Shown piece after piece: positions 10,114 through 26,896 of a stretch of 40,076 nucleotides of DNA; within the stretch, counting starts at the first letter, position 1, and every line of letters starts with the position of its first letter. Source of the DNA: Bdellovibrionales bacterium GWB1_55_8 (GTDB lineage Bacteria > Bdellovibrionota > UBA1018); assembly GCA_001769835.1 (NCBI GenBank), contig MEPR01000081.1:1-40076 (forward strand), read 5' to 3'. The notes under the pieces are model-generated. The model searched no databases, had not been told where the DNA came from, and saw only the letters and a program-made list of their open reading frames with translations. The translations under genes were made by a program, and so were the position numbers.

Positions 10114-10167
10114 GCCCATAAATTGAATACAGTACGGTCGGCTTCATTAAATAAGGAATCAACCAGG

Positions 10168-11211
10168 ATGATGAATATGATGATGAAGAAAATTTCGGTT
10201 CTCGTGACCACTTTGCTGGCAATTCAGGCGACCGTTACAATCGCCCATTCAGCTGCTGCAACCCGTCTGACGGGCGCAGGAGCGACATTCCCCTATCCGC
10301 TCTATTCGAAGTGGTTCTTTGAGTACCAAAAGAGGAATCCCGAAGCTGAGATCAATTATCAGTCCATCGGCAGCGGCGGTGGCATACGTCAATTTACTGA
10401 AGGAACCATTGATTTCGGCGCGTCAGATGCCCCGATGACCGATGAACAGCTCGCCAAGCTGGCACAACCTGCGTTTCACATCCCGACCGTATTGGGCGCA
10501 GTTGTGCTCACATACCATGTCCCCGGTACGTCCACAGGGCTGAAACTGACTCCCGACGTGCTTGCGGATATCTTCCTCGGAAAGCTAACGAAATGGAATG
10601 ACCCTAGATTAACGAAGCTCAATCCTGGCGTGTCATTTCCGGACACGCCCATCCTGGTTGCGCACCGCTCGGACGGGAGCGGCACCACAGGAATCTTCAC
10701 CGACTACCTTTCGAAAGTGAGTCCGGAATGGAAGAAGAAGGTCGGCCAAGGCACAGCCGTTAAATGGCCAGTGGGCCTGGGCGGGAAAGGAAACGAGGGC
10801 GTGACCGGCCTTGTGAAACAGACACCGGGCGCCATCGGTTACGTTGAGCTGATTTACGCCGAAAACAGCAAACTTCCTTACGCATCTGTTCAGAATGCGG
10901 CGGGCCATTTCACACTGCCATCGATGAAATCCGTATCTGCAGCCGCTGCAGGAGCTCTCAAAACGATGCCCGGGGATTTCCGTGTATCCATCACCAACCC
11001 TCCGGGCAAGGATTCCTACCCCATCAGCGGATTCACCTATCTGCTCGTGCACCAGACCGTCAGCGGCGCCAAGGGCCGCACGCTCGTCGAGTTTCTGGAA
11101 TGGGCGGTCAGTGATGGTCAAAAACTCGCGGAGCCACTCTCTTACGCTCCGCTGCCTCACTCCTTGGCGAAAAAAGTCGAGGCCACGATCAAGAAGATTC
11201 AAGTGAAATGA
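10168..11211 (+). CDS. pstS: Phosphate ABC transporter, periplasmic phosphate-binding protein
   Basis: 347 residues from the ATG at 10168 (AAGGA 10 bases upstream); the frame is open to an earlier in-frame ATG at 10123, which lies in the probable promoter. The signal peptide (MKKISVLVTTLLAIQATVTIAHSAAA) is followed by LTGAGATFPYPLYSKWF, the PstS hallmark that forms part of the phosphate site, then IDFGASDAPM and HRSDGSGTTGIFTDYL, both phosphate-contacting segments. It delivers phosphate to PstCAB. First gene of the pst-pho operon; it overlaps pstC by ATGA. Confidence 0.97.
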   Translation: MMNMMMKKISVLVTTLLAIQATVTIAHSAAATRLTGAGATFPYPLYSKWFFEYQKRNPEAEINYQSIGSGGGIRQFTEGTIDFGASDAPMTDEQLAKLAQPAFHIPTVLGAVVLTYHVPGTSTGLKLTPDVLADIFLGKLTKWNDPRLTKLNPGVSFPDTPILVAHRSDGSGTTGIFTDYLSKVSPEWKKKVGQGTAVKWPVGLGGKGNEGVTGLVKQTPGAIGYVELIYAENSKLPYASVQNAAGHFTLPSMKSVSAAAAGALKTMPGDFRVSITNPPGKDSYPISGFTYLLVHQTVSGAKGRTLVEFLEWAVSDGQKLAEPLSYAPLPHSLAKKVEATIKKIQVK

Positions 11212-12146
11212 AGATCATTCGAAAGCGCCGGGACATACATCACGGTGATCGTTACTTCTACTTTCTTCTGAAGGGGTTGGCTTCCGGGCTGCCCCTTCTC
11301 CTTTTTCTGATCGCGGCGTTCTTACTCAAAGCATCGTGGCCGACTATCAATGAATTCGGGGCCGCATTTCTCTTTACGCAGGACTGGGACCCGGTTGGAG
11401 AGCATTTCGGAGTCCTCGCATTCGCCTTCGGAACGATCGTCTCCTCGTTGATCGCGATCGCCATCGGCGCGCCGCTCAGTATTTTCACCGCCCTCTTCCT
11501 CACGGAACTCGCCTCGTCGAGAGTTGCGAAAGTAGCTGGATTTTTGGTCGAGATGCTTGCAGCTATTCCGAGCGTCGTCTACGGACTTTGGGGAATCTTC
11601 GTCCTTGCTCCGATCCTCCGCATTCATGTGGAGCCCTTCCTCGGGAAAACTCTTGGCTTTTTGCCACTGTTCCAAGGACCGCCCTACGGTGTCGGGATGC
11701 TTGCCGCCGGAATCGTGCTCGCAATCATGATCATTCCGACAATCACTTCAGTGTCGAGGGAAGTATTCAGATCGGTGCCTCAGTCCTACCGCGAAGCAGC
11801 CATGGCGCTTGGCGCGACACGCTGGGAAGTGATGCGCATCGCGGTTCTGAAAACCGGATCGACCGGAATTTTAGGTGCCGTAATCCTTGGCCTCGGACGC
11901 GCTCTCGGCGAAACCATGGCGGTAACGATGGTCATCGGTAACCGCGCCGATATATCCGCCTCGCTCTTTTCCCCCGCCCAGACAATGTCCAGTGTGATTG
12001 CCAACGAATATGCGGAAGCCACGTCAGCGACACACGTCGCCGCGCTACTCGAAATTGGGCTGGTTCTTTTCCTGCTGACGTTCATCGTCAACTCCCTCGC
12101 CAGGGTTTTCGTCTGGCGCGCCAGCCTGGGAAGGAGCGCCCGATAA
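11208..12146 (+). CDS. pstC: Phosphate ABC transporter permease PstC
   Basis: 312 residues with six predicted membrane helices. GTIVSSLIAIAIGAPLSIFTALFL begins the permease core, and YREAAMALGATRWEVMRIAVLK is the EAA loop that docks on PstB. The GRALGETMAVTMVIGN motif following it is diagnostic for PstC/PstA. The ATG overlaps the pstS stop (ATGA), and the stop overlaps the pstA ATG by one base. Together with PstA it forms the inner-membrane channel for phosphate. Confidence 0.97.
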   Translation: MKIIRKRRDIHHGDRYFYFLLKGLASGLPLLLFLIAAFLLKASWPTINEFGAAFLFTQDWDPVGEHFGVLAFAFGTIVSSLIAIAIGAPLSIFTALFLTELASSRVAKVAGFLVEMLAAIPSVVYGLWGIFVLAPILRIHVEPFLGKTLGFLPLFQGPPYGVGMLAAGIVLAIMIIPTITSVSREVFRSVPQSYREAAMALGATRWEVMRIAVLKTGSTGILGAVILGLGRALGETMAVTMVIGNRADISASLFSPAQTMSSVIANEYAEATSATHVAALLEIGLVLFLLTFIVNSLARVFVWRASLGRSAR

Positions 12147-13033
12147 TGCGCCGAACTCAACCAAGCGCGCTGTCGCAACTCGTCGAGATCACTTACAAGA
12201 GGCGAAGGCTTGTCACTCGGGCCATGATGATCGTCCTGATAGCGGCGTTCCTGGTCGCGACAGTACCTCTGTTCAGTGTGTTCTTTCATGTGGTGAGACA
12301 GGGTTTGCCCGCGCTCAATATGGACTTTTTCACCCATCTTCCGGCTCCTGTCGGAGAGGCCGGAGGTGGCCTCGCCAATGCGCTTCTTGGAACCATCATC
12401 CTGGTGGTGCTGGCGAGCGTGATCGGAATCCCCTGGGGGGTCGTGATCGGTATCTTCCTCTCCGAGTATGGCAAAAGCCGTTTCGCAGCTCTCGTACGTT
12501 TCAGCGTGGACATGCTTGCCAGCATTCCTTCTATAGTGATCGGTCTATTCGTCTACGCGCTCGTGGTGATTCCGATGAAAAGGTTTTCCGGGCTCGCCGG
12601 AGGTTTGGCTCTGGGCATCCTGATGGTCCCCACCATCGCCCGCACAACTGAGGAGATCCTCAAGCTCATTCCCGTACACATACGGGAGGCCGGCCTCGGA
12701 CTGGGTGTGCCCAGATGGAAGATGATCCTCTTCATCATAGTTCGCGGCAGTATGGGTGCCATTGCGACCGGCGTTATTCTATCGGTAGCACGAGTCGCGG
12801 GAGAAACAGCACCACTCCTGTTTACCGCTCTAAGCAGCCGGTTTTGGTTCGGTGGTCTCGACCAGCCGATTGCTTCTCTTCCAGTGCAGATTTTCAATTA
12901 TGCAATCAGCCCGTTCGAAGAATGGCAAAGCCAGGCCTGGGGTGGCGCATTGGTTCTAATTCTCTTTGTCTTTGTGACAAATATCATTACTCGGCTGGCT
13001 CTTCGACGAGCGCATGGATCGGGGCAATCATGA
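12146..13033 (+). CDS. pstA: Phosphate ABC transporter permease PstA
   Basis: 295 residues, hydrophobic, six helices. It shows the PstA pattern: [40 protein letters not shown], the EAA loop [19 protein letters not shown] and [14 protein letters not shown]. It follows pstC with a one-base overlap (TAATG) and ends in the ATGA shared with pstB. Length and motifs are normal for the family. It pairs with PstC in the high-affinity phosphate importer. Confidence 0.97.
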
Positions 13034-13806
13034 ATACAACGGAACTCCGGGAAACTCTTCTCGATGTCAGGAATCTACATGCCTCCTTCGGAGGAATCGC
13101 TGCGCTTCACGGCATATCCCTTTCCGTGATCGCGAACTCCGTAACGGCGATCATTGGTCCTTCAGGCTGTGGAAAATCGACTTTCATCCGCTGCCTGAAC
13201 CGGCTTCACGAAGAGGTGCCGGGCGCGACGACACAGGGAGAGGTCTGGTTGGACGGCCAGGACATTCTCAGTGCTGATGTCGACCCCGTCACGCTTCGCC
13301 GAAAGATCGGCATGGTATTCCAGAAGCCGAATCCATTCCCCGCGATGTCGATATATGAAAACGTCGTAGCCGGCCTGACGCTTGCCGGAGTTCGCCGCCG
13401 TAGCGTCCTGAACGAGGTGGTCGAAAAAACGCTCAACCTGGCGGCGCTTTGGGATGAAGTGAAAGACAAACTCCACCATCCAGGAAGCAGCCTTTCAGGG
13501 GGGCAACAGCAGCGCCTCTGTATTGCCAGGGCCTTGGCCATCGAACCGCGCGTTTTGCTGATGGATGAACCGACTAGCGCATTGGACCCCATATCCACGG
13601 CACGAATCGAGGAACTCATCGGCGAACTGAAAAGAGAGGTGACGATCGTTATCGTCACGCATAATATGCAGCAGGCGGCAAGAATTTCCGATAAGACCGG
13701 CTTCTTCCTTCTTGGCGAGCTCGTCGAGTTTACGGACACATCGGTCTTGTTCACGGCACCTAAGGATCCGCGCACGGAGCGTTACATAACGGGGAGATTT
13801 GGCTGA
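13030..13806 (+). CDS. pstB: Phosphate ABC transporter ATPase PstB
   Basis: 258 residues from the ATG at 13030, which overlaps the pstA stop; the frame is open further upstream but that is inside pstA. Walker A is GPSGCGKST (43-51), the signature is [15 protein letters not shown], Walker B is [13 protein letters not shown], and the H-loop is in [16 protein letters not shown]. The segment [12 protein letters not shown], with the Q-loop, is characteristic of PstB. It powers phosphate uptake. The stop overlaps the phoU start (TGATG). Confidence 0.97.
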
Positions 13807-14465
13807 TGGAACGGCACTTCGAAACATCACTTCGTGAACTGAAAGTACAGCTTGTGGCGATGGCGAGCCACGTCGAGCGCGCGATCGGAAATGCCATTGA
13901 AGGTCTGCAGAATGGGGACTTCGCCGCGATCGCATCTGTGTACTCGGTTGAAGAGACCATCAACCGTGAAAACATGGACCTCGACGGGTCTTGCGTCAGA
14001 CTACTCGCACTCCAGCAGCCCCTCGCAGCGGATTTGCGGCTTTTGATCGCCGTGATCAAGATCAACACGGACCTGGAGCGCATGGGTGACCAGGCCGTGA
14101 ATATCGCGCAAGATGCTGAAGCTTATCTAAAAGGAGCTCCGCTCAAACCTCTCATCGATCTTCCAAAAATGTTTATGGAAGTTCAGGGTATGGTTCGAGA
14201 GTCCATCAACTCCTTCGTGAACCGAGACGAGAAACTGGCGCGCGATGTGTTGAAACGCGATGACGTCGTAGACGGCTTGAAAGCTAAAATAATCAATGAT
14301 GTGACCGAAATATTGAAAACCCGGCCGACTGATGTTCGCCAGGGCTTGCACCTGATTCTGATCGCACGTCACCTCGAAAGAATCGGCGACCATGCCACCA
14401 ACATCGCGGAAGACGTGATCTATGCGATATCTGGCAAGGATGTGAGGCACGGAGGCTCCACGTGA
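13806..14465 (+). CDS. phoU: Phosphate signalling protein PhoU
   Basis: 219 residues, all-helical, two tandem PhoU repeats. The repeats carry the metal-binding E/D-xxx-D signature: DLRLLIAVIKINTDLERMGDQAVNIA in the first and RQGLHLILIARHLERIGDHATNIAED in the second. PhoU links the transport state of PstSCAB to the PhoR kinase and keeps the Pho regulon off when phosphate is plentiful. Its position between pstB and phoB is common. It overlaps phoB by GTGA. Confidence 0.96.
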   Translation: MERHFETSLRELKVQLVAMASHVERAIGNAIEGLQNGDFAAIASVYSVEETINRENMDLDGSCVRLLALQQPLAADLRLLIAVIKINTDLERMGDQAVNIAQDAEAYLKGAPLKPLIDLPKMFMEVQGMVRESINSFVNRDEKLARDVLKRDDVVDGLKAKIINDVTEILKTRPTDVRQGLHLILIARHLERIGDHATNIAEDVIYAISGKDVRHGGST

Positions 14466-15133
14466 GTTCGCAAAAAATCCTTGTGGTTGAGGATGAAAAA
14501 GACGTCGCTCTTTTGATTTCGATGCGTCTCAAACGCGAGGGTTACGCCGTTACGGTCTCGGGCGACGGTCAGGATGCGCTCGAGCTGGCCAATCGCGAAT
14601 CCTTTGATCTCATTATTCTGGACTGGATGCTTCCAGGTATAACCGGGTTAGACGTTCTGAAAAGACTTGATCGTAAAACGCCCGTACTGATGGTCACGGC
14701 AAGATCAGAACCCGCCGACATAGTTCTCGGTCTCGAAATGGGGGCCGATGACTATCTGACGAAGCCTTTCGAGGTGTCCGTTCTCATTGCACGCGTCCGC
14801 GCCCTGATGCGAAGACGTCAAAACAAGGAAAACAAAGCGGCGGAGAACCGCATCAGGAACGGTCAGCTCATTATCGACACTGAAAGACATGAGGTATTTT
14901 GCGGCGATCAACAGGTGGACCTCACGCCATCTGAATTCCGTTTACTGACAGCCCTGATGCAAAACGCCGGTCGGGTTCTCTCGAGAAACCGTCTGATGGA
15001 ACACGTTCAGGGAGATGTCAACGTGACGGACCGAACGATCGACACGCACGTATTCGGGCTCCGAAAGAAACTGGGCATCTGCCAGGACACCATCGAAACC
15101 ATCCGCGGCGTCGGCTATCGGGTTCGAGGTTAA
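14462..15133 (+). CDS. phoB: Phosphate regulon response regulator PhoB
   Basis: 223 residues, GTG start overlapping phoU. The receiver domain has acidic residues in VVEDEKD, phospho-acceptor Asp54 in LDWMLPG and Lys101 in LTKPFE. An OmpR/PhoB winged helix follows (about 130-221) with LTPSEFRLL, VLSRNRLMEHV, DRTIDTHVFGLRKKLG and IRGVGYRVRG. Phosphorylated by PhoR, it should bind the Pho-box-like repeats before pstS. The assignment to PhoB rather than another OmpR-type regulator rests mainly on context. Confidence 0.93.
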   Translation: MSSQKILVVEDEKDVALLISMRLKREGYAVTVSGDGQDALELANRESFDLIILDWMLPGITGLDVLKRLDRKTPVLMVTARSEPADIVLGLEMGADDYLTKPFEVSVLIARVRALMRRRQNKENKAAENRIRNGQLIIDTERHEVFCGDQQVDLTPSEFRLLTALMQNAGRVLSRNRLMEHVQGDVNVTDRTIDTHVFGLRKKLGICQDTIETIRGVGYRVRG

Positions 15134-15135
15134 TC

Positions 15136-16869
15136 GTGTTCCCTTGGAGAATATTCGGCAGAGTTGTCTTCATCCAGGCCGCAATAGGCTTGTTGACTCT
15201 GTTCGGTGCCGGCCTGTCTGCGCGCCTTTATTTTGAATCACAGTTTATTGCACAGAGCCAGAACCAGCTGCGAGACACGTTGTCCGCCATTTCCTCACAT
15301 ATCGCCCGGGATCAGCTGCACCGAGCATGTCAATCCTCGATGCAGACCGAACTCAGGCTTACGATAATACTTCAGGACGGGACCGTACGCTGTGATTCAC
15401 AGCACGACCCGGCGAAGATGGAAAACCATGCTACCAGACCGGAGTTTCAGGATGCACTTCACTCAGGGTACGGATTCAGCATGAGGGAAAGCGAAACGCT
15501 TCAGAGTCGCATGATTTACGGCGCTATGGCGCACCCATCGGGCCAGTGGGTCATACGCGGAGCTTTTCCCCTGACGCAGCTCACACTGGCTCTCGAGCGT
15601 TTCGACACTTCTTTCAGAATATTTCTCGTTGCGGCGCTTGCCTTAATTGTACTGTTCGCGACGTGGGCCGCGCGCAATATTGTCCTGCCGATTCGAGGCG
15701 TTTCAGACAGGCTGAACGCGATTCTCCAGGGTCGCGTATCTCCTGCCCGAAATCGAGAACTGTTGAGCAATTCCTATGGCGAATGGCCCGCCATCGAATC
15801 AGCGCTCGATCAGGTCAGCCAGAATGTTGAGTCCAGGGAAGAATTTTTTTCCAAAGAGCGAAGCCTTCACGACACGGTTCTGTCCGCCATCAACGAAGGC
15901 ATCCTGGCTGTCGACGTGAAGGGCGAACCTGTTTTCGTGAATTCTAGCTTCCTGGAAATATTTGGAATTGAAGACTTTCGCCGCCCGAGAACGTTATGGG
16001 AGACTTTGCGGATTCCTGAACTCCTGGATCCATTCAGGGCCGCGATTCAAGCGGGCAAAAGCTCGTCGCTCATTCCGATTCACCTGGAGCAAACAAGGAG
16101 ATTCATTTCCGTCTCTGTGTCGCCGCTGAAAGCGGCGGATCGAGCAACCTATGGCGCAGTCGGAATATTTCACGATCTCACTGAAATAAAGAAAGCGGAA
16201 CAAATTCGGACCGATTTCATCGCAAACGCATCACATGAACTGAAGACCCCGCTTACCGCGATCAAGGGCTTCTCAGAAACACTTTTGGATGATCTAAAAG
16301 CCGGTAACAGACCGGAACTGGAATACGCCGAAGCGATTCATCGCAATTCAGAGCGCATGATGGCGCTTGTGAGGGATCTTCTCGATCTGTCCGCGCTTGA
16401 AACGGGCAGTTTCCTGACCAAGGCGGATCTTGACACTGAAATAATCACGTCCCGAGCGCTCGCCTCGATCAGAACGGGAGTAGAAGCAAAGCATCAGGAA
16501 ATCAGAACCCGATTCGAGATCCGGAACGTCCAGGCTGATGCTCACCGTATTGAGCAGGTACTGGTAAACCTCCTGGATAACGCAAACAAATACTGTCCCG
16601 ATGGGGCTACGATCGAAGTGCTATGGACGACAGGGCCCCACAACTCACCTATTCTCACCGTACGGGACAATGGACCAGGCATCGCCAAAGAGCATCTCCC
16701 CAGATTGTTTGAACGATTTTATCGCGTCAACGGCGCTCGTTCACGAGAGCTCGGAGGAACAGGGTTGGGCCTGGCAATTGTAAAACACATCATGCTTCGC
16801 CATGGCGGAAACGTGCGCGTCGAAAGCGAGGCTCATAAAGGGACGACGTTTGTGTGCGAGTTCCCCTGA
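15136..16869 (+). CDS. phoR: Phosphate regulon sensor histidine kinase PhoR
   Basis: 577 residues, GTG start two bases after phoB. Order: TM1 (about 9-31), a periplasmic loop of roughly 130 residues, TM2 (about 162-180), HAMP (about 180-235), PAS (about 245-350), HisKA with ASHELKTPLTAIKGFSETL (His367) and HATPase with NLLDNANKYCP, DNGPGI and GGTGLGLAIVKH. The large periplasmic loop differs from enteric PhoR, which has almost none, but resembles the Gram-positive PhoR layout. Last gene of the pst-pho operon; no terminator was seen after it. Confidence 0.93.
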   Translation: MFPWRIFGRVVFIQAAIGLLTLFGAGLSARLYFESQFIAQSQNQLRDTLSAISSHIARDQLHRACQSSMQTELRLTIILQDGTVRCDSQHDPAKMENHATRPEFQDALHSGYGFSMRESETLQSRMIYGAMAHPSGQWVIRGAFPLTQLTLALERFDTSFRIFLVAALALIVLFATWAARNIVLPIRGVSDRLNAILQGRVSPARNRELLSNSYGEWPAIESALDQVSQNVESREEFFSKERSLHDTVLSAINEGILAVDVKGEPVFVNSSFLEIFGIEDFRRPRTLWETLRIPELLDPFRAAIQAGKSSSLIPIHLEQTRRFISVSVSPLKAADRATYGAVGIFHDLTEIKKAEQIRTDFIANASHELKTPLTAIKGFSETLLDDLKAGNRPELEYAEAIHRNSERMMALVRDLLDLSALETGSFLTKADLDTEIITSRALASIRTGVEAKHQEIRTRFEIRNVQADAHRIEQVLVNLLDNANKYCPDGATIEVLWTTGPHNSPILTVRDNGPGIAKEHLPRLFERFYRVNGARSRELGGTGLGLAIVKHIMLRHGGNVRVESEAHKGTTFVCEFP

Positions 16870-16875
16870 CCCGTT

Positions 16876-17574
16876 TTAAATATGTTTGGAACTGCCAACA
16901 ATGGTGGACCGGTTAGTAACCATTACGGCGGACAACCTGCCATCAGTTCTCAAGGGCGACATGTATTTCAGCTGGATCTTGCATTTCAAAAGCTCAGTCG
17001 AATTCACTTCCTCGAAAACGTGCTCAGGAATCCCTATCTCGATGGTTTTATCCGTTTTACCGGTAACAAAGCCCTGTCCTATGTCGTAAAGCTTACGTTC
17101 GATTTCCGGGTCCCGGCGAGTCACGTTCCACCACTCGACCGCAAAAATATCCTCGATGGAAAAGCTGCAGACCTCGAAGAATTTCAGATTCCTGAATCGC
17201 TGCCGGTGATCCAACGAGTAAATTTCCACAACATCTTCATCGGAAATTTTATCGAAAATATCCTTCTCTGGAATCAGCCTCAGCCGATTCAGTGAACGCC
17301 AGAGCAGACGCGGCGTGTCCTTGAGCGAACAACCTTCATCTCGAAGTTCCGTGAATATCTCGAGTGACTCGGACAGACAATCGATGGCGGCGAGCTGTCT
17401 CTCAGGACTGGAGTTCGCGAACAGCTCCAATCCCGGTGACCGGAAGGGTCGGACCAGAATACCCTCCTCATGAACCATTTGCGAATACAGCAGCGACATC
17501 TGCCTGAATCGTTCGACTCGGTCCTCAAGCGCTTTGATCTCATTCAGACCTTTCAGCCGGGGAGAATTGGACAT
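16876..17574 (-). CDS. Uncharacterised 232-residue protein
   Basis: Not recognised. Predicted cytoplasmic: no signal peptide or membrane segment. The first 100 residues are helical and charged (LNEIKALEDRVERFRQMSLLYS), the middle has KDIFDKISDEDVVEIYSLDHRQRF, and the last 80 residues alternate strand-like runs (KTIEIGIPEHVFEEV, CKIQLKYMSPL). It ends 6 bases from phoR, tail to tail, and starts back to back with an XRE-type regulator. No clear ribosome site precedes the ATG at 17574, so the start is uncertain. The conserved-looking composition and full-length frame support a real gene. Confidence 0.7.
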   Translation of the reverse strand: MSNSPRLKGLNEIKALEDRVERFRQMSLLYSQMVHEEGILVRPFRSPGLELFANSSPERQLAAIDCLSESLEIFTELRDEGCSLKDTPRLLWRSLNRLRLIPEKDIFDKISDEDVVEIYSLDHRQRFRNLKFFEVCSFSIEDIFAVEWWNVTRRDPEIERKLYDIGQGFVTGKTDKTIEIGIPEHVFEEVNSTELLKCKIQLKYMSPLRTDGRLSAVMVTNRSTIVGSSKHI

Positions 17575-17680: not shown

Positions 17681-17983
17681 ATGACGACGTACAGAACAAG
17701 AAAGCAGCCCACCCTTCCGGAGTTTCTCCGACAAAGACGCTTATCCGCAGGGCTGTCCCAAAAGGACGTGTCGGATGTAATGGGTTACTCCACCGCTCAG
17801 TTTGTATCCAACTGGGAGCGCGGAACATCACATCCTCCCATGAATGCCTTGCGAAAGCTCTGTCAGGTGTATCGCGTTTCTGCTGATCAATTGTATGAGG
17901 TCCTTCTGGCGGACACGCTTGACAGGACAGAGAAAGAACTGGAACGGGAATTTTTCAGGACCCGCACACAAAACCGTAAATGA
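17681..17983 (+). CDS. XRE-family helix-turn-helix regulator
   Basis: 100 residues. A Cro/CI-type helix-turn-helix spans about 12-66: FLRQRRLSAGLSQKDVSDVM, then YSTAQFVSNWERGTSHPP with the recognition helix, and LRKLCQVYRVSADQLYEVLL. A charged C-terminal tail follows. TGAGGA stands 8 bases before the ATG. It is divergent from the 232-residue gene (107-base gap) and overlaps the DUF4421-like gene by ATGA, so it may control either or both. Confidence 0.88.
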   Translation: MTTYRTRKQPTLPEFLRQRRLSAGLSQKDVSDVMGYSTAQFVSNWERGTSHPPMNALRKLCQVYRVSADQLYEVLLADTLDRTEKELEREFFRTRTQNRK

Positions 17984-19010: not shown

Positions 19011-19214
19011 ATGATCCGCATTGAAATGACAGATCAGGAAGCCGCGATACTGCGAGATGCGCTCAGCCAATTTGACCATACGTCCAAGTTCGAAATTGCA
19101 CGAACAGACGACCATGACTATCGCGTCGGCCTGGAAGGCCGCGAAGCGATAATAGCCCGGTTGATACGACGTCTGGATGAAGCTATTGCTTCCGCTAAAT
19201 CAGCCGCCGCCTGA
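19011..19214 (+). CDS. Small conserved-type hypothetical protein (67 residues)
   Basis: A compact charged helical protein: TDQEAAILRDALSQF, then IARTDDHDYRVGLEGREAIIARLIRRL. This pattern (two helices around a T-D-x-x-D-Y/F-R motif) is familiar from small uncharacterised bacterial proteins. No strong ribosome site precedes the ATG. Its 3' end overlaps the convergent DUF2938 gene by 15 bases. Function unknown. Confidence 0.55.
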   Translation: MIRIEMTDQEAAILRDALSQFDHTSKFEIARTDDHDYRVGLEGREAIIARLIRRLDEAIASAKSAAA

Positions 19215-19691
19215 TGTGAAAAGCGCCACCACGCCAAGCGTCAGACCGTACACCAGGTGATTCCAGATAGCCGTGCGAAACAGGGGCGCGCCGGGTGGCG
19301 CTTTGAGCGCAAAAAAACCAAAGCCCATCGCTGGGAACATAAGAAGAAAAGGAAAGACGTCGGTCATAGTTCCATAAGCGATCGCAGTCAGAATATCGGC
19401 CGGAGAAAAGGCCAGCTGTGCAGCCAGCCAGAAATAAAGAATCCCCAACGCGACTCCGATTCCATAATGAGAGGCGATGCCAATCAGGCTTTCGTGCTTC
19501 ACAGGATTCGCATCAAAAATAGTGCGATGGACCAGCTTCCCCCGAATCAGGTAAGCGACCCACCGGCCCAGTAGCGCCGCACTCGGAGGCTTCAGCAGGC
19601 CCACCCGCGATCCCAGTGCCGAGCCGACATCCATGGCGAAAGTTCCAAGCAGCCCCGCGACAACAGAGATAAAAAACAATCCGATATCCAT
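19200..19691 (-). CDS. DUF2938-family membrane protein
   Basis: 163 residues with about four membrane helices: IGLFFISVVAGLLGTFAMDVGSA at the N-terminus, then SHYGIGVALGILYFWLAAQL, TDVFPFLLMFPAMGFGFFAL and NHLVYGLTLGVVALF. The TFAMD segment, the HY/GIG helix and the N-H-x-x-YG helix match DUF2938, a family of unknown function. It starts 8 bases after the histidine kinase stop, with its AAGGAA ribosome site inside the end of the kinase gene, so it belongs to the ThiF-kinase operon. The C-terminus ends in three glycines. Confidence 0.85.
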   Translation of the reverse strand: MDIGLFFISVVAGLLGTFAMDVGSALGSRVGLLKPPSAALLGRWVAYLIRGKLVHRTIFDANPVKHESLIGIASHYGIGVALGILYFWLAAQLAFSPADILTAIAYGTMTDVFPFLLMFPAMGFGFFALKAPPGAPLFRTAIWNHLVYGLTLGVVALFTSGGG

Positions 19692-19699
19692 CGTTCTGC

Positions 19700-21031
19700 C
19701 TATTCCTTCGTTAGGAGCGTGAAGTGAATGGTGGTACCGCCTTCAGCCCTGTTTTCAGCCCATATCTTTCCGCCATGCTTCTCGACGATAGCGCGGCTGA
19801 TCGCAAGCCCGAGCCCTGCGCCCGCCTTGGCGGTGCGATCGGCTTGCCAATAGGGATCAAAGATCTTCGCTAGCTCGCCTTGTGGAATACCCTGGCCGGA
19901 ATCCTGGACCGAGATGCGCACTCCCGAAAGCTCCCGAACCGCGCTCAGGCTGACATGTCCGGAGGAAGTGAACTTGATCGCGTTCCCTACCACGTTTGAA
20001 ATCACCTGAAAAACGCGGTCTCGGTCGACGGCGATGCTAAAATCTGATGCAAGCAGATTTTGCTGAAGCTTGAGACCTTTTTCCACAGCCAGTACCTCGA
20101 GAGGCTGCAAGGCCTCGGTAATCAGCTGGTTCGTGCTTTGAGTCTTGATCTTCAGCTCCACGTTCCCGAATTCCAGTTTTCGCAGATCCAGGAGGTCGTC
20201 GATGAGCTTCGTCATTCCGTCCACTGAAGATCCAACCTGCTCAACATGCTTGCGAATGGTGACCAGATCGTCCGGGAGCAGCTTCAGCAGAAGTTCCGAT
20301 CGCAGGCGAATAGCCAGCAGAGGATTTTTAAGATCGTGTGACACCACCGCCACCATATGATCCCGGGCAAGAACGGCATCCTGCGCTTGCTTGTGAAGTC
20401 GCGCATTCCCGATGGCAAGCGCCGCCCGATTAGCGATCTGACGGCAGACGTTGAGATCGCCCGATCCGTATCGCATGCCCGAACGACTGAGGCCAAACAC
20501 GATCGCGCCGAGAACGTTCCCTGCGTGAGATAAGGAAATGACGATCAGCGACTTCAGGTTCGCTTTTTCAAGTTGCTCGCGTTCTTCGGCGTCGGCCGAT
20601 AGGGCATCCAACTCATCAGCCCCCAACCTGTCGTAAAGCACGGACTCACGCTTCTTCAGGATTTTCAGTGAGGCAGAAGACAGGATCGGACCCGATTCCA
20701 GAACTCCTCCTCTGGCAACTCGCCTGAGGTCACCATTCTCTTCCATCAGATCAACCCAGCACACATCGCTCATGCCGGGTACCGCAAGTTCCGCGACTTT
20801 CGAAATGGTGAGATTATAATCGAGCGACTCGCTCAGCGCCCGGTTTGCCTCACTCAGGAAGACCCAATGTTCCTGCGTCATCTCGTCGATGATTTCCCTG
20901 GATGCACGAAGCTCCATGCGCACCTTGCGGTTCGCCCTGAACGAGATAAACGAGAAACCCGCAAGTACTGCCGTTGCAATCACCAGAAGCGATGCAAGCA
21001 CCTGCCAAACGACGTTACAGTTTTCAATCAC
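19700..21031 (-). CDS. GAF-domain sensor histidine kinase
   Basis: 443 residues, GTG start overlapping the ThiF-like gene (GTGA). An N-terminal membrane helix (about 9-30) and a coiled coil lead to a GAF domain (about 65-212), HisKA with VVSHDLKNPLLAIRLRSELL (His232) and HATPase with NVVGNAIKF, DSGQGIPQGEL and GAGLGLAISRAI. GAF domains bind small ligands. There is no adjacent response regulator, so the partner is elsewhere. Co-translation with a ThiF-like enzyme suggests that it senses or controls that pathway; this is inference. Confidence 0.92.
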   Translation of the reverse strand: MIENCNVVWQVLASLLVIATAVLAGFSFISFRANRKVRMELRASREIIDEMTQEHWVFLSEANRALSESLDYNLTISKVAELAVPGMSDVCWVDLMEENGDLRRVARGGVLESGPILSSASLKILKKRESVLYDRLGADELDALSADAEEREQLEKANLKSLIVISLSHAGNVLGAIVFGLSRSGMRYGSGDLNVCRQIANRAALAIGNARLHKQAQDAVLARDHMVAVVSHDLKNPLLAIRLRSELLLKLLPDDLVTIRKHVEQVGSSVDGMTKLIDDLLDLRKLEFGNVELKIKTQSTNQLITEALQPLEVLAVEKGLKLQQNLLASDFSIAVDRDRVFQVISNVVGNAIKFTSSGHVSLSAVRELSGVRISVQDSGQGIPQGELAKIFDPYWQADRTAKAGAGLGLAISRAIVEKHGGKIWAENRAEGGTTIHFTLLTKE

Positions 21032-21858
21032 GCGGCTTTTCTTTCCGGAGCACCCACCACTCTGGCCTGATAGGACGCGAGGAACTTCTGAATCCGAAGA
21101 TTGACCGGATCAAAGTAAATTCCATAAGGCGCAACCACCTTCTCGCCCAGCTGCAATATCTGTTTGGCGATTTCGGTCGTCGCGATCGCTGCGGCTATTT
21201 CAACGCCAGGAACTACAAAAGGAATGTGAGTACTCCTGTTCAGCGCTCGAAGGAGCTGTTTTTCCATGTAGGCAGGGATTTCCGGCGTAATGAACTGCAG
21301 AAAACGCCTGCTATTCTCCTCATAGCTATTATCACGTGAAATTCCTGTCAATTCCGCAAAACTTGGCCCCTGCTGATCGAAGACAACGACCGCACCTCCG
21401 AACCCCAGGGCCCCGCATGAGGCCACCGGAATCTTGCGAATATGGGCCTCTTCATTGAGCGCGAGTTTGTCGAGCATGGCGAACAGATCGACGACATCAA
21501 CAACCCAATCAACTCCGTTTAGAAACTGCGCGACATTGTGCTGCTTGACGCCTTCGCGAAAGACCTCCACCTCGATCGATGGATTAATGGCCCGAGCCTC
21601 TTCGAGAAGCGAATCGTCTTTCCTTCGTCCTAACGTAGGCTCTTTCGCCAGCCGCTGCCGATTGATGTTCGTGCGCTCGTAGACGTCAGGATCGGCAATG
21701 TGGAACTTCTCAAATCCCGTTCGCACAAGATTGATGAAAACAGAGCCCCCCAATCCCAAGCCACCCATGGCGATTCGAGTGTTCTTGATGCGAAGCAATT
21801 GAGCCTCATTCATGATCCCGATATTCCGAAGAAATCTTTCCCGATAAAATGAATCCAT
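21028..21858 (-). CDS. ThiF/MoeB/E1-like adenylating enzyme
   Basis: 276 residues from the ATG at 21858, which has GAGGAG 6-7 bases upstream; the frame is open to 21897 but that would enter the operator region. The E1 fold is shown by MGGLGLGGSVFINLVRTGF (nucleotide loop, about 31-49), the acidic DPDVYERTNINRQ (about 56-68) and DWVVDVVDLFAML. Such enzymes adenylate the C-terminal glycine of ubiquitin-like proteins (ThiS, MoaD) or of peptides. Oddities: no CxxC zinc pairs and only one cysteine (Cys148, in VASCGALGF), so the usual zinc site is missing and the thioester cysteine uncertain. No ThiS/MoaD gene is in the window. First gene of the ThiF-kinase-DUF2938 operon. Confidence 0.88.
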   Translation of the reverse strand: MDSFYRERFLRNIGIMNEAQLLRIKNTRIAMGGLGLGGSVFINLVRTGFEKFHIADPDVYERTNINRQRLAKEPTLGRRKDDSLLEEARAINPSIEVEVFREGVKQHNVAQFLNGVDWVVDVVDLFAMLDKLALNEEAHIRKIPVASCGALGFGGAVVVFDQQGPSFAELTGISRDNSYEENSRRFLQFITPEIPAYMEKQLLRALNRSTHIPFVVPGVEIAAAIATTEIAKQILQLGEKVVAPYGIYFDPVNLRIQKFLASYQARVVGAPERKAA

Positions 21859-21869
21859 TATGACTCCTC

Positions 21870-21901
21870 GAATATGATATATTCTTGAGTATAACACTCA
21901 A
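21870..21901. promoter_or_regulatory. Two adjacent palindromes in a divergent promoter
   Basis: GAATAT-GAT-ATATTC (21870-21884) is directly followed by TTGAGT-ATAAC-ACTCAA (21885-21901); both have perfect 6-base arms. On the minus strand TTGAGT (complement of 21896-21901), a 16-base spacer and TATCAT form a plausible promoter for the ThiF-like operon, so a bound protein would block it. They lie between the ThiF-like and GNAT-like genes and probably control both. Confidence 0.6.
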
Positions 21902-21934
21902 TTGTTGTTTTTCCAGCCTTGGAGGAGTGGCGTG

Positions 21935-22693
21935 ATGACGGATTTACTGAGGGACCTGAAAATTGTTGTGATTGATAACCCCACAAAAACATGGGCTGAA
22001 TCGCTCACAACAGATCTTTTCACTAAAACAGTTGATCTGAAGTTACGAGGCTACGGCGTTGAGTATCAGCGCGGGGTCCTCCCGATAGACACGAGTGACT
22101 TTTACGGAGTTCATCAGCTTGTCTGCCGACAGACCTCTTCCGGTCTTGTCCCTCTCATGGGTTATCGGTCGACCACACTGGAGCGAAGCCGGTTGTACGG
22201 TCAGACCTTCGGAGGCCTCAGCCTTGTTCGGGCCGCGAATGCCGCTCAGCATGATCGTGCCATTCAGGATATTCTGAATCGTTGCGAATCACAGGGAAGG
22301 TCCATCACCTACACGGGCTCCTGGACCATCGATCCCGAGGCTCGCAAAAATCCGGAACTATCACACCTGCTGAACGAGCTCTTTGCCGCCATGTATGTTC
22401 TTTTCCATCTGGAAGCGGGAATCCAGGAAATCATCACCGGTGGAACCCTTCGGTTCAAGGTGGATCGGCTGCTGGTCAGATGGGGACATGAATATCTTCA
22501 AAGCAACGGCACACGATTGCCCCCCATCCGCGTCGCCAACCTTGTCAGTGAACCCGTGGTCATCATGCACCTGCGGGAATTCAGCCATGAGGTGCGGGAG
22601 CAAGTGAACAAATGGCGGTTCTTCTGGAATCAGCGCCTGATGATCACCGTTCCGTCAGACTCATCGCTCGATCAAAAGAGCAAAGCGGCTTAA
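21935..22693 (+). CDS. GNAT / acyl-amino-acid or AHL synthase-like protein
   Basis: 252 residues from the ATG at 21935, with GGAGGAG 7 bases upstream; GTG at 21932 is possible. The order suggests a GNAT-type fold similar to FeeM and AHL synthases: a helical start, LVPLMGYRSTTLERSR (strand with Arg), ITYTGSWTIDPEARKNPELSHLLNEL (the strand, acceptor loop and helix expected around the acyl-CoA/ACP site), IQEIITGGTLRFK and a basic helix VDRLLVRWGHEYL. Family membership is moderate confidence; substrate unknown. It is divergent from the ThiF-like operon across shared palindromes and overlaps the convergent V4R gene by 4 bases. Confidence 0.65.
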   Translation: MTDLLRDLKIVVIDNPTKTWAESLTTDLFTKTVDLKLRGYGVEYQRGVLPIDTSDFYGVHQLVCRQTSSGLVPLMGYRSTTLERSRLYGQTFGGLSLVRAANAAQHDRAIQDILNRCESQGRSITYTGSWTIDPEARKNPELSHLLNELFAAMYVLFHLEAGIQEIITGGTLRFKVDRLLVRWGHEYLQSNGTRLPPIRVANLVSEPVVIMHLREFSHEVREQVNKWRFFWNQRLMITVPSDSSLDQKSKAA

Positions 22694-23616
22694 GATACCG
22701 CCGAGGCCTCTTCAAAGTCGATCTCGAAGCAGCAAACCGGATCCCCCCGGTGCACGCAGCTGACTTCTTCAATTTTTGCAAATGGCAGCCCGAGATAACT
22801 CGGCGCCGCCGCCATCCATCCGGCTTTGAGTGAACAGACATCCGCGCTTCCAAGATTTCGCACGCCGATGGCGCTCGCTATCGAGCTTCGATCCCGCACT
22901 TCAACGGTGCAGCGTCGGTCATCCAGCCGTACGACATCATAGTGACAGTTATGCTCGAAGAACCGCATCAGATCGGTAAACAGCCGTTCATAAATCTCAC
23001 CGGGATTCGTGCAGTTCTCGAGCAACTCACAAAGAGCGGGGTTCTGCCTGGAAATTCCGGCGTACAATCCCATTCGGTAAAAATCGCGATCCCGGTAGGC
23101 ATACGCGGTGCGCAGAGTGCTGCAGATATCGGTAATACACTGGATGCTGATCGCGCCCATCGGTTCAGTCAGCAGACGTTCGCCGATATCGTGATCCTGC
23201 AGGAGCTTGGCACGCATGCGCCAGCCGGAATTTTTTTCGACAAAATCCAATGCATGGATAGTCGTGCGGCGCCGGCCGAATGCGGCGATGCGGTACCGTT
23301 CCGGAAAATCGAGGTTCGCGGGAGATTGATTGATCGCAATTTCGCGAAAATCGATTTCGCCTTTTTCCAGCTGCTGCTCCGTAATCAAAAAGCGATTACA
23401 AATGGCCTCGAGCGCATGAACCGGGAGACCCCGATTTCCCTTGAGAAAGAGATCGTATTCCGGAGCGGTCATTTCAAGAAGATCGAGCCACTGACTTTTC
23501 CCTTTTGCTTTGATTCCGGGCGAAGACCAGCTCAGCCGCTCAACGGATTCACGCAACTGACTTGCCTTAAGATGGATTGCCGGATTCTGACGCATCGCAT
23601 TTGCGGTATAGCGCAC
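22690..23616 (-). CDS. V4R-domain regulator with HTH-like N-terminus
   Basis: 308 residues from the GTG at 23616; an ATG at 23595 is the alternative. Residues about 33-85 (KSQWLDLLEMTAPEYDLFLKG, LPVHALEAICNRFLITEQQLEKG) resemble a Cro/CI-like helix-turn-helix. The C-terminal 80 residues match the V4R domain: CSLKAGWMAAAPSYLGLP, then KIEEVSCVHRGDPVCCFEI with the conserved cysteines and RGDP. V4R domains bind small molecules and occur in transcription regulators such as the XylR/DmpR type. It shares its 3' end with the GNAT-like gene, so it may respond to that gene's product; this is inference. Confidence 0.75.
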   Translation of the reverse strand: MRYTANAMRQNPAIHLKASQLRESVERLSWSSPGIKAKGKSQWLDLLEMTAPEYDLFLKGNRGLPVHALEAICNRFLITEQQLEKGEIDFREIAINQSPANLDFPERYRIAAFGRRRTTIHALDFVEKNSGWRMRAKLLQDHDIGERLLTEPMGAISIQCITDICSTLRTAYAYRDRDFYRMGLYAGISRQNPALCELLENCTNPGEIYERLFTDLMRFFEHNCHYDVVRLDDRRCTVEVRDRSSIASAIGVRNLGSADVCSLKAGWMAAAPSYLGLPFAKIEEVSCVHRGDPVCCFEIDFEEASAVS

Positions 23617-26165: not shown

Positions 26166-26552
26166 ATGACGAGCCCCGAACCACTCAAGCGCATTCTGGT
26201 AATTGAAGATGACGAGGACATTCTGTTCGCGGTCACTCAACTTCTTGAACTCGAAGGTTATGAAGTCAGCACTGCGACAAATGGCGCAATCGCACTTGAT
26301 CTGCTGCAGCAGAACGAGCTTCCGGACCTGATCTTGCTCGATATGATCATGCCAGTGATGGATGGATGGAAATTTGCCGCAGCACTTCACCAGAAGTTCG
26401 GAACGTGCATCCCGGTCCTCGTCATGACCGCCGCCGCCAATGCAGCAGAACGCGCGCGGGATGTCGGCGCCGCCGGTTGGGTGCCGAAACCTTTCAAGAT
26501 CGAGGAATTGATAGAACGCATTAAAGAACACTCAAACGGGAGAAAATCATGA
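26166..26552 (+). CDS. Single-domain response regulator
   Basis: 128 residues, receiver domain only. VIEDDEDILFAVT carries the acidic pair, LILLDMIMPVMDGW the phospho-acceptor Asp, LVMTAAA the conserved Thr and WVPKPFKIEEL the Lys. There is no output domain, so it acts by protein contact or in a phosphorelay, as CheY-like proteins do. It starts one base after the kinase stop and overlaps the cytochrome gene by ATGA. The frame is open upstream, but that part is inside the kinase gene. Confidence 0.93.
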   Translation: MTSPEPLKRILVIEDDEDILFAVTQLLELEGYEVSTATNGAIALDLLQQNELPDLILLDMIMPVMDGWKFAAALHQKFGTCIPVLVMTAAANAAERARDVGAAGWVPKPFKIEELIERIKEHSNGRKS

Positions 26553-26896
26553 CCAGAATTCTTGTTTTATTCCTGACATCGATTGCCGTTATTGGATGCG
26601 CAACCCCGGCATCCGACCAACCAACACAAGATTCCCAGCCGGAGGCCCGAGCGGCAACAGCTGCCCCGGAAACCGCAAAGAAAGCTCCGGATCAGGTCAC
26701 ACTGAAGACGAAAATGGGCAACATCACCTTTGGCCATGAATCCCACGGCCAGCGGATGAAATGCTCCGTTTGCCATGGTGCTGAAATCAAGGCAATGGCA
26801 CCACTCGGGCAGAAGGCCGGCCACAAGCTTTGTCTGGATTGCCACAAGGATAAAAAAGCAGGCCCGACCAAGTGTGGAGACTGCCACAAGAAGTGA
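26549..26896 (+). CDS. Triheme cytochrome c lipoprotein (c7/c3-type)
   Basis: 115 residues. The signal peptide ends in a lipobox-like VIGC (Cys17). An Ala/Pro/Gln linker leads to a small haem domain with three CxxCH motifs (CSVCH, CLDCH, CGDCH) and distal histidines in FGHESH and AGH. The domain begins MGNITFGHESHG, typical of the c7/c3 'cytochrome_C7' family with low-potential bis-His haems. Likely a periplasmic or outer-membrane-attached electron carrier. It is co-translated with a response regulator (ATGA overlap). Confidence 0.9.
   Translation: MTRILVLFLTSIAVIGCATPASDQPTQDSQPEARAATAAPETAKKAPDQVTLKTKMGNITFGHESHGQRMKCSVCHGAEIKAMAPLGQKAGHKLCLDCHKDKKAGPTKCGDCHKK

Follow-up and report, generated by a model that had tools for sequence, protein, structure and literature searches.

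A recurrent synthase and V4R receptor gene pair in Bdellovibrionota, possibly serving an N-acylated small-molecule signal

In the described acyl-oxazolone pathways, TyzB and the ThiF part of TrzS carry out the ATP-driven cyclisation of N-acyl amino acids to oxazolones, and a flavin oxidase is also required (PMC10404671, PMC12856293). Stieleriacine-type clusters contain the same synthase and ThiF genes (PMC12479983). An earlier note on the locus described here had proposed an undescribed acylated or adenylated signal; the chemistry of synthase and ThiF, however, is already described, since acyl-oxazolone pathways use the same pair (PMC10404671, PMC12856293, PMC12479983). The locus resembles OxzAB, TyzACB and TrzAS in that an N-acyltransferase adjoins an adenylating enzyme of ThiF type that has no accompanying sulfur carrier. 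It differs from them in having no detected flavin oxidase, a ThiF closest to PRK08223, a PLP enzyme after ThiF in seven relatives and a V4R regulator. FeeM and the stieleriacine NasY share the fold (2g0b) and the expected reaction, and methyltransferase and ThiF neighbours occur in stieleriacine clusters too, whereas the synthase studied here lies below the Pfam FeeM cut-off and is paired with receptors. With LuxI/LuxR systems (BjaI, LasI and EsaI with their cognate LuxR) the locus has in common the acyl-synthase fold, BjaI being the top structural match, a synthase gene paired with a ligand-sensing, DNA-binding regulator, and the occurrence of solo receptors. Unlike those systems, it has no PF00765 or LuxR-family match, its receptor is an XRE-like and V4R protein, and it carries additional carboxylate-tailoring enzymes and ssrA-like synthase tails. 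The modelled C-terminal sensor domain of the regulator resembles in fold H-NOX proteins and the phenol sensors DmpR, PoxR and MopR, but the regulator has an XRE-like N-terminus and neither an AAA+ domain nor a heme motif.

The analysed stretch of 40,076 nucleotides (hereafter, the window) is part of an 84-kb contig in a 3.78-Mb genome that is 96% complete and belongs to the phylum Bdellovibrionota. Reading of the open reading frames together with Pfam searches confirmed five genes at window positions 19200–23616 (Table 1). The ThiF stop and the GTG start of the kinase have four bases in common (GTGA); thus, the two genes are translationally coupled, in agreement with the co-translation that the earlier note had assumed. 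The overlap between the GNAT-like gene and the regulator gene that it had reported is likewise present: the two converge tail to tail and their stop codons overlap. The longest reading frame of the synthase starts with TTG at 21902, but translation plausibly begins at the ATG at 21935, which follows GGAGG. No Rfam match was found in the window. Elsewhere in the window, the gene content of positions 10123–16869 (+) marks an operon for the uptake and sensing of phosphate. It comprises a substrate-binding protein, two permeases, an ATPase, PhoU and a response regulator and is ended, judging by position and sequence, by a PhoR-like kinase at 15136–16869. A 232-aa protein without any Pfam match (16876–17574, −) stands beside a small divergent HTH_3 protein (17681–17983, +), and a small cytochrome c7-like reading frame (26549–26896, +) lies behind a response regulator.

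Table 1. Features of the locus, in window coordinates
Feature	Position	Strand	Evidence or remark
DUF2938 membrane protein	19200-19691	-	PF11158 E=1.4e-26
GAF histidine kinase	19700-21031	-	HATPase 9.6e-29, HisKA 7.5e-13, GAF
ThiF C-terminal -RKAA, synthase-type tail	21031-21042	-	9/9 closest orthologues AA or VA
ThiF/E1-like adenylating enzyme	21028-21858	-	PF00899 E=6.7e-34
ThiF/synthase divergent promoter region	21859-21934	.	two exact inverted repeats
N-acyltransferase-like synthase, 252 aa	21935-22693	+	AHL-synthase/FeeM fold; weak PF21926 FeeM
Synthase C-terminal -SKAA, ssrA-like tail, candidate ClpXP degron	22679-22690	+	conserved C-termini
V4R receptor-type regulator	22690-23616	-	PF02830 V4R weak; XRE-like HTH region and V4R/H-NOX-fold domain

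The sequence of the synthase places it only loosely. Its match to Pfam FeeM (PF21926) is weak (E=0.006, 16.8 bits against a curated cut-off of 27), just 1 of 15 homologues matched this family at all, and none of the 15 matched PF00765 (LuxI) up to E=1. A sequence search of the PDB found no relatives; therefore, structures were compared. The AlphaFold (AF2) model, built from six homologues, had a pLDDT of 88.6 and a pTM of 0.87, and its best Foldseek match in the PDB was BjaI, a CoA-dependent acyl-homoserine-lactone synthase (E=4e-6), followed by FeeM, LasI, EsaI and MesI, with other general GNATs also among the matches. Query TM-scores of 0.4–0.55 denote the same fold and a distant relation; for chains of the FeeM structure 2g0b, the target TM-score reached 0.61. 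Residue D55 does not vary among 40 homologues, and D52 agrees with the consensus. The two lie three residues apart before the first central strand, which we take to be the position of the aspartate pair of AHL synthases. As modelled, the synthase (252 aa) has the AHL-synthase/FeeM fold and is a diverged N-acyltransferase, with N-acylation as its predicted reaction. The likeness to FeeM and AHL synthases noted earlier is therefore borne out by the fold, and with BjaI as the top match the protein cannot be called unrelated to acyl synthases.

The regulator matched PF02830 (V4R) with E=9e-5, below the Pfam cut-off. Its AF2 model (pLDDT 82.4) has a helical N-terminal part and a C-terminal sensor domain, for which Foldseek returned H-NOX as the best match and then the V4R aromatic-sensor domains of MopR, PoxR and DmpR. 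A heme-binding H-NOX identity was rejected, since the YxSxR heme motif occurs in only 3 of 107 family members. With the heme motif absent, a small-molecule pocket is the likely function of the modelled V4R domain. A paralogue of the regulator matches HTH_3 at 3.6e-12, and we infer an XRE-like helix-turn-helix in the window regulator itself.

Next, the distribution of the two genes was examined. A profile of 15 synthase homologues, searched against 369 Bdellovibrionota genomes, found relatives in 86 of them. A V4R profile found the V4R family in 128 genomes of the phylum, usually in one to five copies each; two further V4R genes lie elsewhere in the window's own genome. The V4R family was present in 80 of the 86 synthase genomes (Fisher P=2.2e-39, a value that ignores shared ancestry), and in 63 of the 74 fully read loci a V4R gene lay within 1.5 kb of the synthase. 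Nine synthase loci had no V4R gene in the fetched stretch, and some of these nine stop at a contig border. Given about two V4R genes per 3.5 Mb, adjacency by chance would be well below 1% per locus. In 49 loci the two genes converged tail to tail at a spacing of −68 to +35 nt; a spacing of −3, the stop-codon overlap seen in the window, occurred in 14 of them. A mirror-tree comparison that ignores shared ancestry gave a correlation of r=0.80 between the synthase and V4R distance matrices. One locus (L134, genome G197) has V4R and kinase genes without a synthase, that is, a solo receptor resembling LuxR solos. No synthase relatives were found on plasmids. A scan of 84,980 genomes with search patterns that reach close relatives only returned 5 loci, all in Bdellovibrionota. 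A deeply diverged synthase clade (L124–L133, branch 2.7) is still paired with V4R, usually together with ThiF and an alpha/beta hydrolase. Since V4R is both adjacent to and co-occurring with the synthase, the conserved core of the locus is synthase plus V4R receptor.

The pairing thus recurs throughout the phylum, in other genomes than the one in which it was noticed. Conservation of the ThiF and GNAT neighbourhood, which the earlier note had singled out, was found in part: ThiF stands near 30 of 73 synthase loci (the window and 29 further), but it is an accessory that alternates with a SAM methyltransferase. The latter is near 34 loci, and both are near 1 (Fisher P=4e-11 for this near-exclusion, ignoring shared ancestry). 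On the synthase tree, the ThiF/methyltransferase label changes at least seven times, and five of these changes are forced by supported branches; a phylogenetic sign test of the swapping was underpowered, too small for significance (median P 0.25). Most simply, the two would be alternative tailoring genes acting on the same group, the free carboxylate that is left after N-acylation, and both could cap this carboxylate in the product.

The window ThiF gave its best NCBIfam match to PRK08223 (187 bits), followed by PRK14851 (153 bits) and the Rv1355c model (46 bits). The G-G-G motif, D58, R69, K82, D123 and D126 are invariant in five ThiFs of these loci. As the earlier note had remarked, the enzyme lacks zinc CxxC pairs, because the whole protein has a single cysteine, and no ThiS/MoaD-like partner frame was seen in the window. 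A nitroreductase-type flavin oxidase was found neither in the window nor among the scanned neighbour representatives. The oxidase half of PRK14851 is also missing from the window's 96%-complete genome, which has one ordinary nitroreductase elsewhere. Therefore, the product should be saturated or different. Hydrolases, methyltransferases and acyl-CoA dehydrogenases are among the locus neighbours; alpha/beta hydrolases, near about half of the synthase loci, could turn the product over. In seven relatives (L073, L075, L076, L078, L079, L081 and L085), a short PLP enzyme of 273–283 aa, similar to cysteine synthase and SbnA, directly follows ThiF, which hints at an unusual amino acid; it is missing from the window locus.

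The kinase and the DUF2938 protein look like frequent guests and not like part of the core. Kinase-like frames, some of which may be other kinases, occur near 22 of 73 synthase loci, and relatives carry GAF-kinase or GAF-kinase-receiver proteins. DUF2938 stands beside V4R in two more loci (L081 and L085, Bdellovibrionaceae family). Only this loose adjacency in three loci speaks for the exporter role once assigned to DUF2938, and we do not retain it. Between ThiF and synthase there are two exact inverted repeats, GAATAT-N3-ATATTC at 21870–21884 and TTGAGT-N5-ACTCAA at 21885–21901, both candidate operators. The shared palindromes of the earlier note are thus present in the window, but the intergenic regions of eight relatives held no matching palindrome, and a conserved operator was rejected on this ground.

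A new observation, alongside the swap of tailoring genes, is the pattern at the C-terminal tails. Synthases typically end in -AA, -VA or -SA, while the rest of the tail is variable, often with Lys or Arg before the final pair. Among 72 homologues, position −1 is Ala in 61 and position −2 is Ala or Val in 64; entropy is 0.89 bits at −1 and 1.33 bits at −2, against about 3.8 bits upstream. An ending of the form [AVSTG][AGS] was found in 69/74 synthases vs 45/692 other frames of the loci. All nine of the closest ThiF orthologues end in AA or VA. In the AF2 model, the synthase tail has a pLDDT of 52–56, with the AA on a flexible tail. The tmRNA tag of the window genome ends in GNDYALAA, and the resemblance of both tails to this tag suggests ClpXP control of synthase and ThiF. 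For sigmaAntA, it has been proven that ClpXP recognises a conserved Ala-Ala at the C-terminus as a degron (PMC7142297). The parallel lies in a conserved Ala-Ala ending in a protein encoded within a specialised-metabolite locus; the difference is that sigmaAntA is a sigma factor, whereas the putative degrons here stand on the biosynthetic enzymes themselves.

We propose that synthase and receptor form a module that works in the manner of LuxI/LuxR, with an unrelated receptor and with an N-acylated small molecule of the amino-acid type as its product and cell-cell signal; we consider the chances of this proposal to be even. By analogy with homologous pathways, ThiF would adenylate the free carboxylate, leading to cyclisation to a neutral product with an oxazolone-like or similar cap. 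In sister loci this step would fall to a SAM methyltransferase, probably making a methyl ester. The fold and the adjacency of the XRE-V4R protein suggest that it would bind the product in its V4R pocket and control transcription. The conserved C-termini suggest that ClpXP would keep synthase and ThiF scarce through the ssrA-like tails, and signal synthesis low. This module best explains the synthase fold, the V4R sensor fold, the co-occurrence and adjacency of the two genes, the near-exclusion between ThiF and methyltransferase, the published chemistry of NAS with ThiF, the tails and the solo receptor. Recurrence, adjacency, partner swapping and tails are direct observations, and it is plausible that the product is a cell-cell signal. 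Counted against the module are the fold-level TM-scores, the GNAT matches, the FeeM score below cut-off, the lack of a PF00765 match, the mirror-tree and Fisher values uncorrected for ancestry, the underpowered sign test of the swapping and the operators that are not conserved.

The main competing explanation is a small acyl-oxazolone or N-acyl amino acid pathway for a specialised lipid or antimicrobial, in which V4R is a dedicated switch that reacts to the product or a precursor, without any signal between cells. Feedback on the pathway may be all that a regulator next to a biosynthetic gene provides, synthase plus ThiF is the core of the OxzAB, TyzACB, TrzAS and stieleriacine clusters (PMC10404671, PMC12856293, PMC12479983), antimicrobial effects and effects on communities are described for N-acyl tyrosines (PMC12479983), and the hydrolases, methyltransferases and acyl-CoA dehydrogenases near the loci also fit a pathway. 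However, these papers on the clusters describe no V4R regulator (PMC10404671, PMC12856293, PMC12479983), the oxazolone flavin oxidase was seen neither in the loci nor in the genome, and the core of synthase and receptor persists across loci with different tailoring genes. Sensing also accounts better than feedback for the multiple receptors per synthase and for the solo receptors. We regard this pathway explanation as a serious possibility, though a doubtful one.

A further reading takes the synthase as a GNAT for another substrate (acetylating a protein, tRNA or antibiotic) and V4R as the sensor of an unrelated ligand. The general GNATs among the Foldseek matches and the marginal similarity to FeeM would fit, but the best and most specific structural neighbours are AHL synthases and FeeM, the D52/D55 pair presumably occupies the AHL-synthase aspartate position, and partners such as ThiF and methyltransferase suit a small molecule with a carboxylate. 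This explanation is improbable. Far less credible still is a ThiF that acts as in sulfur-carrier or ubiquitin-like systems, among unrelated neighbours. Membership in the ThiF superfamily and the -GGG end of the window DUF2938 protein point that way; such a role was nevertheless rejected, as there is neither a ThiS/MoaD partner nor zinc cysteines, the DUF2938 proteins of relatives have no C-terminal glycine, and 30 loci carry ThiF next to the synthase.

Returning to the synthase-receptor module, the recurrence of the pair across the phylum makes a chemical communication system in Bdellovibrionota possible. In the literature searched, no description was found of a self-made acyl signal for Bdellovibrio and its relatives. 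Our most specific suggestion, tentative and somewhat short of even in our judgement, is that Bdellovibrionota, including the Bdellovibrio family, have a previously undescribed quorum-sensing family, in which the product of a LuxI-fold synthase is an N-acyl amino acid with its carboxylate capped through methylation or ThiF cyclisation, the receptor is a cognate XRE-V4R protein, and an ssrA-like degron throttles the synthase. If true, the LuxI fold has here a partner of another receptor type, and the masking of the carboxylate is solved by either of two different enzymes. The degron-like tails offer a cheap, sharp prediction on the control of signal synthesis. With such a synthase-receptor pair conserved phylum-wide, the way in which predators gauge density or time their release would become directly accessible to genetics.
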